DNA of 64,000 bases. Source: an uncultured Agromyces sp. (GTDB lineage: Bacteria > Actinomycetota > Actinomycetes > Actinomycetales > Microbacteriaceae). The stretch spans positions 124,001 to 188,000 of the forward strand of contig CAJXGN010000005.1 of assembly GCA_913053875.1 (NCBI GenBank). Reading direction: 5' to 3'. Positions 14,151-17,774 of the stretch are shown piece after piece; the stretch's first letter is position 1, and the number at the start of each line of letters is the position of its first letter. The notes under the pieces are model-generated. The model was given only the letters and a program-made list of their open reading frames with translations, ran no database searches and was not told the origin of the DNA. The position numbers and the translations under genes were made by a program.

Positions 14151-15141
14151 TCGCTACGACGTGATCCCCGTCGGCATCACGCGCGAGGGCGCGTTCGTGC
14201 TCGAGGCCGACGATCCCGAGCGGTTCGCCCTCGATCCCGCCCACCTGCCCGAGGTCGTCGACAACGGCACCCGAGTGCAGTGGCCTGAGAGCACCGCGTC
14301 CCGCGAACTGCGGGTGACGGATGCCACGGGCACGCGCTCGCTCGGCGAGGTCGACGTCGTATTCCCGATCCTGCATGGGCGGTTCGGCGAGGACGGCACC
14401 GTGCAGGGCCTCCTCGAGCTCGCCGGGCTGCCGTACGTGGGCAACGGCGTGCTCGCGTCGGCCATCGCCATGGACAAGCACGTCGCCAAGACGGTGCTCG
14501 AGGGCGCCGGCATCCCGGTCGCCCCCTGGGTGACGGTCACGCGACCCGCGCTCGCCGCGAACCGCGACCTGTGGGAGCGGCGCATTCGGGCGCTCGGCCT
14601 GCCGGTGTTCGTCAAGCCCGCGCGGGCCGGCTCGTCGGTGGGCGTGACGAAGGTCGCCGACTGGTCGGAGCTCGACGCGGCGCTCGAGACGGCGTTCGCC
14701 GAGGACCGCACCGTGCTGGTCGAGCAGGCGATGACCGGTCGTGAGATCGAGTGCGGCGTGCTCGAGGGCCGTGCGGGGGAGCCGGCGCGCGTGAGCGTGG
14801 CCGGCGAGATCGTCGTCACGGGCCGCGAGTTCTACGACTTCGAGGCGAAGTACCTCGACGCGCCGGGCATCGACCTGGTCTGCCCGGCCGACCTCGGCGA
14901 GGGCGAGCTCGACGAGCTGCGGCGGGTCGCGCAGCGCGCCTTCGACGCCATCGGCGGCGAGGGGCTCGCCCGCGTCGACGTCTTCCTGACCGGCGAGGGC
15001 TTCGTCGTCAACGAGGTGAACACTATGCCCGGGTTCACCCCGATTTCGATGTTCCCGACCTGCTGGCAGCACTCCGGGCTGACCTATCCCGAACTCATCA
15101 CCGAGCTCGTCGAGACGGGCGCCGAGCGCGGGCCGCGATAG
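14050..15141 (+). CDS. ddl: D-alanine--D-alanine ligase
   Basis: 363 residues, typical length. Ddl makes the D-Ala-D-Ala dipeptide for the peptidoglycan stem in an ATP-dependent reaction. ATP-grasp features: FGGRSSEHSISC at the N-terminus, the ATP-binding KPARAGSSVGVTKV, and the C-terminal metal-binding NEVNTMPG. The start is ATG 14050 with GAAAGGA at 14037-14043, which makes the gene begin inside the extended 3' end of gpsA in another frame. The omega-loop region and active-site residues look intact. Confidence 0.96.
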   Translation: MDRRRVAVLFGGRSSEHSISCATAGGVLRAIDRDRYDVIPVGITREGAFVLEADDPERFALDPAHLPEVVDNGTRVQWPESTASRELRVTDATGTRSLGEVDVVFPILHGRFGEDGTVQGLLELAGLPYVGNGVLASAIAMDKHVAKTVLEGAGIPVAPWVTVTRPALAANRDLWERRIRALGLPVFVKPARAGSSVGVTKVADWSELDAALETAFAEDRTVLVEQAMTGREIECGVLEGRAGEPARVSVAGEIVVTGREFYDFEAKYLDAPGIDLVCPADLGEGELDELRRVAQRAFDAIGGEGLARVDVFLTGEGFVVNEVNTMPGFTPISMFPTCWQHSGLTYPELITELVETGAERGPR

Positions 15142-15188
15142 CCCGCCCGACACGCCCGATCGCCCTCGACCGGCCCGCACCCGCGTGC

Positions 15189-15194
15189 CAAGAT
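15189..15194 (+). promoter_or_regulatory. -10 box CAAGAT before the PPOX-fold gene
   Basis: CAAGAT ends six bases before the ATG at 15201, the same geometry seen at other leaderless starts in this window. It is a weak match to consensus. Confidence 0.35.
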
Positions 15195-15200
15195 GAGGGT

Positions 15201-15632
15201 ATGGCCGACAACGGTGCACCGATCGTCGAACTGAGCAGCGAGGAGTGCTGGGCGCTCCTGGTCGAGAACGAGCTGGGGCGATTGGCGGTGTCCATCGCCG
15301 ACCAGCCCGAGATCTTCCCGGTCAACTACGCGGCGTCCGACGGCGGCATCCTCATCCGCACGGCGGAGGGCACCAAGCTCTTCGCGGTGACGGTGAACCA
15401 CCGTGTCGCGTTCGAGATCGACGACCGCAGCGAGCAGGAGGGCTGGAGCGTCGTCGTCAAGGGCCACGCCCGCACGCTCGAGCACGAGGACGAGATCGCA
15501 GCGGCCGAGCAGGAGCCCCTCACGCCGTGGATCCAGACCGTGAAGCGCAACTTCGTGCGCATCGAGGTCGACGAGATCACCGGGCGTCGGGTGCGGTTCG
15601 GCACCGAGCCGGAGCCCGACTTCACGATCTGA
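15201..15632 (+). CDS. Pyridoxamine 5'-phosphate oxidase-fold protein
   Basis: 143 residues. The pattern is that of the small split-barrel flavin/heme/F420-binding families: an N-terminal helix (LSSEECWALLVENELGRLAV), the strand pair FPVNYAASDG, and a central TAEGTKLFAV segment. The ATG at 15201 is chosen because a -10-like box lies just upstream; the frame runs open into ddl but that is shadow coding. Substrate and cofactor cannot be assigned from sequence. It stands alone between ddl and a reverse-strand lipoprotein, and its stop is 10 bases from the end of that gene. Confidence 0.8.
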   Translation: MADNGAPIVELSSEECWALLVENELGRLAVSIADQPEIFPVNYAASDGGILIRTAEGTKLFAVTVNHRVAFEIDDRSEQEGWSVVVKGHARTLEHEDEIAAAEQEPLTPWIQTVKRNFVRIEVDEITGRRVRFGTEPEPDFTI

Positions 15633-15642
15633 CGCGGGCGCG

Positions 15643-16140
15643 TCACTCCTCCTCGAGCAGCTCCTCGGCCCCGAGGCATCCCCCGTCTGCCGGCACGGAT
15701 GACACGGCCAGCGCCAGGTCCGCCAGCGCGGTCGTGCCCGAGGCGAGGTCGGAGTCGACGATGACCTCGGTGGCGGGAACGCGCCCGTAGGTCGTGAAGA
15801 CGTAGTTCGGCGCGTCGGTCTCGTCGATGATCCAGTCCACGCCGTTCACGTCGACGCATTCGAGCGTGGTCGGCCCGGGAGGCTCGACGCCGCAGCGCAG
15901 CAGCACCGCGGCGGGGTCGCCCCAGGCGCCCGTGCCCTGCGCGTCCGTGGGGCGCTGCTCGTGCCCCGAGACCTCGTCGGGCAGGCGCACCACGATGTCG
16001 GCGCAGCCGACCTCGATCGCGTCGGCAGCGGGTTCGAGCGCGACCGTGCGGGTGCAGCCGGCGAGCGAGAGGGCGAGGGGCACGCAGGCCAGCGCGGCGA
16101 CGATGGCTCGAGCGGGCCCGGCGGGGGAGTGATGCATCAC
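15643..16140 (-). CDS. DUF3515 family lipoprotein
   Basis: 165 residues. A basic n-region, hydrophobic core and lipobox LAGC (cleavage before about Cys29) mark an exported lipoprotein. The remainder (CADIVVRLPDEV, TGAWGDPAAVLLRCG, VFTTYGR) matches the actinobacterial DUF3515 family, whose function is unknown. Two in-frame ATGs open the gene; the outer one lies five bases after a reverse-strand TAGCCT box. It is divergent from thiL with only 21 bases between the start codons. The acidic C-terminus ends in a run of Glu. Confidence 0.82.
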   Translation of the reverse strand: MMHHSPAGPARAIVAALACVPLALSLAGCTRTVALEPAADAIEVGCADIVVRLPDEVSGHEQRPTDAQGTGAWGDPAAVLLRCGVEPPGPTTLECVDVNGVDWIIDETDAPNYVFTTYGRVPATEVIVDSDLASGTTALADLALAVSSVPADGGCLGAEELLEEE

Positions 16141-16161
16141 CGATCAGGCTACCGTGAGTGC
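16141..16161. promoter_or_regulatory. Overlapping divergent leaderless promoters
   Basis: The whole gap between two opposed start codons is 21 bases. On the plus strand TACCGT (16150-16155) ends six bases before the thiL ATG. On the minus strand TAGCCT (plus coordinates 16146-16151) ends five bases before the DUF3515 ATG. The two -10 boxes share two bases, so RNA polymerase probably cannot melt both at once. Confidence 0.5.
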
Positions 16162-17175
16162 ATGCCCTCCAGCCCCGAGCCCGGCTCCGACGCGGGCGGC
16201 CCGGACTCCATCGGCGCCCTCGCCGAACAGGCCGTGCTCGGTCGCATCGTCTCCCGGCTCCCGGCGGTCCCGGCGGCGGAGGTGGGGCCGGGCGATGACG
16301 CCGCCGTGGTGGCGAGTCCCGACGGCAGGTTCGTGGTGACGACCGACCTGATGGTGCACGGCCCCGACTTCCGGCTGGCGTGGTCACGGCCCGACGACCT
16401 GGGCTGGAAGGCCGCCGCGACCAACCTCTCCGACGTGGCCGCGATGGGTGCGCGCCCCACGGCGCTCGTCGTCGCACTGGCCGCGCCGGCCGACACCGAC
16501 GTCGCCGTGCTCGAGGGCATCGCCGACGGGCTGCGCGAGGCGTGCGCGGCGCTCGCGCCGGGGTGCGGCGTGGTGGGCGGCGACCTGTCCGTCTCGCGCA
16601 CCCTCACGATCGCGGTGACCGCGTTCGGCGACCTCGGTTCTCGGGCGCCGGTGCGGCGATCGGGCGCGCGCCCGGGCGACGTGGTCGCGCACGCCGGCCG
16701 GCGCGGCGATGCGGCGCGCGGGCTCGCACTGCTGTTCGCGCGGGCCGTCGACGGCGACGACGAGCCCGACCGCGGGCGCGCCGAGGCGCTGCGCGCGGCG
16801 CACCCCGACCTCGTCGAGGCGCAGCTGCGGCCGCGGCCGCCGGTGTCGGCGGGTGTCGACGCTGCGCTCGCGGGCGCGACCGCGATGCTCGACGTCTCCG
16901 ACGGACTGGCGCGCGATGCGGCGCGCATCGCCGCGGCGAGCGGCGTGGGCATCGACTTCGACTCGGCGGCGCTCGGCGCCGCCGAGGGGCCGACGGTGTT
17001 CGGCGCGGAGGACCACGGGCTGCTCGCCACGTTCCCCGCCGACGCGGCCGTGCCCGACGGGTTCGACACGATCGGGCGGGTCACCGATGACGCCGGAACG
17101 GTGTCGGTCGACGGCGCCTCGATCGAGCCTGTGGGCTGGGACCCCTACGAGGACTGGAACGGCGTAACGGGCTGA
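16162..17175 (+). CDS. thiL: Thiamine-monophosphate kinase
   Basis: 337 residues. ThiL phosphorylates thiamine monophosphate to the active cofactor thiamine diphosphate. PurM-like kinase motifs are present: GPGDDAAVV (about residue 43), TTDLMVHGPDF, the NLSDVAAMGARP segment and the C-terminal-domain MLDVSDGLARDAARIA. The ATG at 16162 follows a TACCGT box by six bases; the frame is open upstream but lies antisense to DUF3515. Its 3' end overlaps the convergent rsmD by 31 bases. Confidence 0.93.
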   Translation: MPSSPEPGSDAGGPDSIGALAEQAVLGRIVSRLPAVPAAEVGPGDDAAVVASPDGRFVVTTDLMVHGPDFRLAWSRPDDLGWKAAATNLSDVAAMGARPTALVVALAAPADTDVAVLEGIADGLREACAALAPGCGVVGGDLSVSRTLTIAVTAFGDLGSRAPVRRSGARPGDVVAHAGRRGDAARGLALLFARAVDGDDEPDRGRAEALRAAHPDLVEAQLRPRPPVSAGVDAALAGATAMLDVSDGLARDAARIAAASGVGIDFDSAALGAAEGPTVFGAEDHGLLATFPADAAVPDGFDTIGRVTDDAGTVSVDGASIEPVGWDPYEDWNGVTG

Positions 17176-17774
17176 CGGTCGGCGTCGGCGTCCGGGTCGG
17201 GCCCGGGCGCGGCATCCGCCCACCACACCGTCGTCTCGCCGTAGTCGCGTCGGCGGTCGGGTTCGATGCCCGCCGGCCACTCCGGCTCGGGGCTGCGGGC
17301 GCTGCGCTCGACGACCACGATCGCGTCGGGCGCGAGCAGCGGCATGAGCGCCGCGAGGTCGGCCGCGAGCTCGCCGTCGCCCAGCTCGTACGGCGGATCG
17401 GAGAAGACCACGTCGTAGCCGCCGGCCGAGTCGTGCTCGAGGTGGCTGCGCACGGAGCGGGCGACCACGTCGATCCGCGGCGGCCGGGCGTCCCGCGCCG
17501 CGCGGAGCAGCGCGTCGGCGTTGCGCCGGCACACGGCGGCCGCCGGCTTCGCGCGTTCGACGAGCACGACGGATGCCGCGCCGCGACTGGCCGCCTCGAG
17601 CCCGAGCGCGCCCGAGCCGGCGTAGAGGTCGAGCACGCGCGCCCCCGCGAGCGCGTCGCGTGCCTCGAGCGCCGAGAAGATCGCCTCGCGCACGCGGTCG
17701 CTCGTCGGGCGCGTCCCCGATCGGGGCACCTGGAGCGTGAGGGAGCCGGCGAACCCGGCGACGATGCGCGTCAT
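17145..17774 (-). CDS. rsmD: 16S rRNA (guanine(966)-N(2))-methyltransferase
   Basis: 209 residues, usual length. RsmD methylates G966 of 16S rRNA using SAM. Motif I (VLDLYAGSGALGLEA) binds SAM and FSDPPYEL is the N-methyltransferase DPPY motif. The start at 17774 is preferred to an ATG at 17786 because that second ATG lies within a TATGCT -10 box on the reverse strand (17782-17787), seven bases before the chosen start. Its 3' end overlaps thiL by 31 bases in convergent orientation. The gene is divergent from the TPR gene. The last 20 or so residues are a low-complexity Asp/Ala-rich tail. Confidence 0.92.
   Translation of the reverse strand: MTRIVAGFAGSLTLQVPRSGTRPTSDRVREAIFSALEARDALAGARVLDLYAGSGALGLEAASRGAASVVLVERAKPAAAVCRRNADALLRAARDARPPRIDVVARSVRSHLEHDSAGGYDVVFSDPPYELGDGELAADLAALMPLLAPDAIVVVERSARSPEPEWPAGIEPDRRRDYGETTVWWADAAPGPDPDADADRQPVTPFQSS

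Follow-up and report, generated by a model that had tools for sequence, protein, structure and literature searches.

The window, a stretch of 64,000 nucleotides from an uncultured Agromyces sp. whose genome comprises 3.5 Mb in 26 contigs, carries two divergently oriented genes whose start codons lie close together. Positions 15643 to 16137 of the minus strand encode a DUF3515 protein (PF12028) of 164 amino acids, a probable lipoprotein judged by eye from its LAGC lipobox, and positions 16162 to 17175 of the plus strand encode the thiamine-phosphate kinase ThiL, of 337 amino acids (TIGR01379, 222 bits, cut-off 184). The intergenic gap spans 16138-16161, or 16141-16161 if DUF3515 is read from GTG 16140. 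Inside it, the ten-letter core AGGCTACCGT at 16146-16155, which follows the pattern ANNNTANNNT, reads as two opposed -10 boxes of the form TANNNT and was therefore annotated as a candidate bidirectional promoter box. The putative thiL box is TACCGT (16150-16155, plus strand), located 6 nt from ATG 16162, and the putative DUF3515 box is TAGCCT (16146-16151, minus strand), located 8 nt from ATG 16137 and 5 nt from GTG 16140. The two hexamers overlap at one TA step, 16150-16151, which by geometry supplies T-12 and A-11 of each strand. An earlier note on this DNA had described opposed TAGCCT and TACCGT boxes sharing two bases, and both were found, with the TA common to the two.

According to the spacing rule described below, transcription of thiL is predicted to start at the A of its ATG (16162, plus strand) and that of DUF3515 within 16137-16140 (minus strand), A16137 being preferred. 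Assuming discriminators of 6 nt to both sides, the box geometry predicts transcript starts 23 bp apart, the start codons being 25 bp apart (22 bp with GTG 16140). No -35 element was found at the box. A sigma-70 promoter and terminator scan of 15500-16800 returned no promoter-like sites, a result that is uninformative because the promoters expected here are GC-rich and consist of a -10 element only. A hairpin at the gap was no more stable than in shuffled sequences (z 0.06), and an Rfam search of 15000-17500 at gathering scores gave no matches, hence no riboswitch; control of thiL by a TPP riboswitch was set aside on this result.

In order to define the background of leaderless promoters in the family, we drew random 20-kb stretches from genomes of the family, 80 stretches from 80 genomes, and ran on them a home-made gene finder based on codon usage, which gave 1458 genes, 1144 of which were tested. 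TANNNT stood 6-7 nt ahead of a candidate start in 170 of the 1144 genes, compared to 14-33 at fourteen control distances; at 5, 6, 7, 8 and 9 nt the counts were 4, 120, 51, 15 and 14 genes, respectively. The spacing rule in Microbacteriaceae genomes is thus sharp. Both genes of our locus carry TANNNT a few nucleotides ahead of a start codon, as expected for actinobacterial leaderless genes, the 8 nt of DUF3515 being less usual than the 6 nt of thiL. Such genes are described as having TANNNT some 10 bp ahead of the start codon (PMC3160421, PMC3898074) and no conserved -35 (PMC3898074).

Searches for DUF3515 were positive in 59 of the 60 genomes at genus level, in 113 of the 120 at family level and in 162 of the 197 at class level. 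From these searches together with 80 named thiL loci we collected 292 loci, of which 25 had no thiL match and 24 no DUF3515 match. The other 243 had both genes in divergent orientation; with L061 dropped for its overlapping anchors, 220 distinct loci were left. Fifty class-level loci had been fetched; the 26 distinct divergent ones were set aside, leaving 194 family loci. Duplicates were removed only if the stretch between the anchors was identical and near-identical strains stay among the 194, so the tree test given below serves as a safeguard for the counts. Of the 194 loci, 183 yielded a leaderless -10 box for each gene and 151 had the TA in common; the other 43 lack the shared form. The partner base A-16 occurred in only 7 of the 170 random leaderless promoters, which argues that the sharing is not due to chance. 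The earlier note's reading of the gap as two opposed leaderless promoters with bases in common, which remains a prediction, is therefore strongly supported by this comparison.

The anchors were at most 240 bp apart in 176 loci, and 144 of these had the whole compact form, with a start-to-start distance of 24-26 bp in 137. The core was AGGCTACCGT in 117 of the 144 and AGGCTAGCGT in 10, a degree of identity exceeding what TANNNT alone needs. Among 256 combinations of letters at positions 0, 4, 5 and 9, A, T, A, T ranked first (144 loci, followed by 131 and 98), and from the column table the runners-up appear to be the same conserved block in shifted register. Of the 57 coded genera, 49 have at least one member with the compact form, which was present in none of the 26 distinct divergent loci outside the family; the named Agromyces loci comprise three compact and five apart. 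The excess of identity in the box could mean that something further also binds it beyond the two -10 elements, through an extra protein contact; our guess is that the inner letters are so constant since every base serves the two promoters at once.

The search for AGGCTANCGT-N5-9-RTG gave a single match in the 3.5-Mb genome, at DUF3515/thiL, and five matches for the backwards-read control pattern, and A-16 occurred together with G-14 and C-9 in one of the 170 random leaderless promoters. With a single pre-start site in the genome and 1/170 in the random set, AGGCTANCGT was ruled out as a generic promoter motif.

The DUF3515 frame (15643-16140) offers two adjacent in-frame starts, GTG 16140 and ATG 16137. 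Of the 144 compact relatives, 108 have a minus-strand spacer of 7 nt, 28 one of 8 nt and a single one a spacer of 5 nt, the value nearest 7 being taken where two starts were possible. A 5-nt spacer is at background level, whereas 8 nt is weakly favoured and is seen in 28 of the 144 relatives, so that the start is probably better placed at ATG 16137 than at GTG 16140, which makes the gap 24 bases and not 21. Spacers of about 5-6 nt had been proposed for both genes by the earlier note; this holds for thiL (6 nt), and for DUF3515 the 5 nt apply only with GTG 16140, the likelier ATG 16137 standing 8 nt away, off the commonest 7-nt spacer. Both spacers of the locus (6 and 8 nt) are thus off-centre. 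In practice, a two-way box helps to fix start codons, since both starts lie about 25 bp apart around it. In three members of the genus (G008, G040 and G044) a longer frame gave a further, weak DUF3515 match that did not reach the family cut-off.

The strongest evidence comes from a natural experiment that the family offers, as the boxes were found apart in some loci, with 13 bp to about 2 kb between them. We fixed the DUF3515 -10 box from its own gene alone and then read the base at the position of the opposite T-7. All 151 loci with an in-frame thiL start 5-9 nt beyond the site had T there, compared to 5 of the 34 in which thiL starts elsewhere. With the thiL -10 box as anchor, the partner A-16 was present in all 154 cases of the first kind versus 12 of 38 thiL promoters standing apart. 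On a tree of 192 ThiL proteins (two short ones were dropped), with both traits available in 183 for the DUF3515 side and 190 for the thiL side, the arrangement changed at least 15 times. After correction for the tree, the DUF3515 side gave six supported independent pairs, on average 5.6 in the same direction and none in the opposite one (median p 0.031, range 0.031-0.125). The thiL side was not significant (seven pairs, 2.7 in the same direction, none opposite and 4.3 without difference). T-7 follows the arrangement, both between compact and separated loci and in the tree-corrected DUF3515-side test, and we read these comparisons as evidence that both predicted -10 boxes are in use where the genes abut.

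The same geometry was found at a second gene pair. Among 203 divergent pairs in the 80 random stretches, of which 12 had candidate starts 20-30 bp apart, only one had a compact shared box, located between a gene for a LysR-type substrate-domain protein and DUF5997 (L327, 12959-12968); boxes with the two A and the two T arranged in any of the five other ways were absent from the 203 pairs. A DUF5997 match was obtained in 38 of 60 genomes of the family, and the best 30 of these 38 together with L327 were examined (L327, L373-L402). The TA-shared geometry was present in 8 of the 30 divergent loci, or in 7 of 29 without the discovery locus. These shared boxes have several differing core sequences with an offset identical to that at DUF3515/thiL, and no other overlapping offset was seen among the examined pairs in which both boxes were found. 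TA-sharing with other core letters indicates that the shape recurs. The rule ANGNTANCNT, with G at -14 on both strands, fits the DUF3515/thiL locus; it was rejected as a general rule, as it does not fit the LysR/DUF5997 cores. In the genome of the window itself (L379, G000:C9 near 75282-75659), the stretch before DUF5997 is AAGGCTATACGCT, where a possible TAGCCT (minus strand, 4 nt from ATG) abuts TACGCT (plus strand) and the TA is not shared.

Opposed -10 elements that overlap within a shared near-symmetric sequence, here ANNNTANNNT, are what defines the bidirectional promoters of Warman and Grainger (PMC12825309, PMC10268837), which have a near-symmetric -10 region read in both directions and starts a few tens of bp apart. 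According to PMC12825309, the divergent starts are most often 18 bp apart, with 10 and 23 bp also common, and 24% of the E. coli bidirectional promoters lie between divergent genes and yield two mRNAs. Judged by its layout, the DUF3515/thiL box would most likely fall into the published 23-bp class. It departs from the class as described there in several respects: neither mRNA is expected to have a leader, the promoter fills almost all of the gap, no -35 element was seen, and most of a family keeps the box at one gene pair. The TANNNT close to the start codon is the feature shared with the actinobacterial leaderless genes of PMC3160421 and PMC3898074, each of which, as described there, has its own box, whereas the present one would serve two genes. 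A further likeness is to prpD/Rv1129c of M. tuberculosis, also a pair of divergent genes, both leaderless, which go up together in starvation according to PMC3898074, where closely juxtaposed divergent promoters are called common. Among the titles listed in searches of the open-licence PubMed Central literature we found no direct precedent for the DUF3515/thiL pair or for a promoter both leaderless and bidirectional, nor any start-site map for Microbacteriaceae.

Taken together, we propose, with a probability of roughly 80%, that the gap is a minimal bidirectional sigmaA-type promoter giving two leaderless mRNAs, which would provide compact co-expression with nearly independent basal outputs and no switch. 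One near-symmetric box of 10 bp would offer a -10 element to each strand, with the central TA common to both, such that T-12 of one promoter would pair with A-11 of the other and vice versa. RNA polymerase would bind the box in either orientation and then melt it, and transcription would begin at, or a few bases from, the start codon to produce the leaderless thiL and DUF3515 mRNAs. As the TA step consists of the same base pairs in both directions, polymerase would engage one way or the other. A single polymerase at a time is likely on the box, both from the geometry and by analogy with this promoter type, for which PMC12825309 states that binding is mutually exclusive. Near-independent expression at ordinary basal activity is our best guess, because five E. 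coli bidirectional promoters transcribed in vitro fired at a basal level too low for competition (PMC12825309) and there is, as judged from conservation, no sign of an activator here. The analysis itself establishes the sequence, the geometry, the conservation in most family loci and the loss of the partner base once the genes are separated; the use of sigmaA, the start sites, leaderless translation, steric exclusion and the lack of strong coupling are the parts of this model that we infer.

The earlier note had gone further and proposed a built-in switch between the lipoprotein and thiamine activation, in which the promoters would fire at each other's expense and the cell would make either DUF3515 or ThiL. 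The shared bases do make simultaneous occupancy unlikely, and in PMC12825309 divergent repression appears once one direction is strongly activated; however, the same source reports that weakening one direction hardly affected the other at all five basal promoters, the divergent leaderless pair of M. tuberculosis rises together (PMC3898074), the Rfam search, riboswitches included, was empty, and there is no evident reason for opposing the two proteins. The switch is not supported, given the weak basal competition at those five promoters; it is among the least supported readings and we consider it very unlikely. A stronger contender, whose chance we put somewhat short of even, is neutral packing: compaction of the genome would have pushed two ordinary leaderless promoters into each other, and their overlap, itself of no effect, would be kept only because each box is needed. 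It is favoured by the loss of the partner base in most separated loci (T-7 in 5 of 34), which implies that neither gene alone needs the overlap. The shared form nevertheless persists in 151 of the 194 loci even though decoupled lineages exist, the inner letters of the box are unusually fixed, and the TA-sharing offset recurs at LysR/DUF5997, all of which speak against mere packing. This account and the bidirectional promoter proposed above agree on the molecules and differ on why the overlap is kept, so that the confidences placed in them are not exclusive.

Two other explanations were considered. The box could be mainly the operator of a transcription factor, its -10-like letters being incidental, as might be suspected from core letters that are near-invariant beyond the needs of a -10 and from the lack of a second AGGCTANCGT-N5-9-RTG in the genome. 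We regard this as very unlikely, since the presence of T-7 goes with where the thiL start codon lies (151 of 151 against 5 of 34), the spacers fit the general leaderless rule and LysR/DUF5997 has the same geometry with different core letters. Also very unlikely is the expression of one or both genes from leadered promoters located elsewhere, within the neighbouring gene: the two possible starts of DUF3515 leave some room for it, whereas by eye no clear Shine-Dalgarno run precedes either start and the spacing is tight and conserved.

Beyond the single locus, it is possible, although we hold it more probably wrong than right, that selection preserves in Microbacteriaceae a recurring type of minimal promoter for gene pairs, in which a symmetric box of about 10 bp would drive two leaderless mRNAs from about 24 bp of regulatory DNA, with the outputs coupled via polymerase orientation. 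If so, DUF3515/thiL would be the most conserved case found and LysR/DUF5997 the second, and the coupling through orientation could fix the ratio of the two products or lower noise. What is known of bidirectional promoters comes mainly from transcript maps, made in a small number of species. In the present case two genes, one of them for thiamine-phosphate kinase, seem to rely on ten common bases in the majority of the family members examined. The arrangement changes on the tree, at least 15 in number, show the outcome when the need for two-way firing changes, and on so small a locus one can ask whether an overlap of promoters links the two genes or only saves space.

Among the loci with the genes apart, about 2 kb separate DUF3515 from thiL in L063 (937-3000), L077, L084, L098, L112, L183, L193, L196, L201-L203 and L205 (window's genus), and at these loci each gene has a separate leaderless -10 box. 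In L063, each strand of this 2-kb stretch has an open frame of about 620-650 codons, and the frames overlap.
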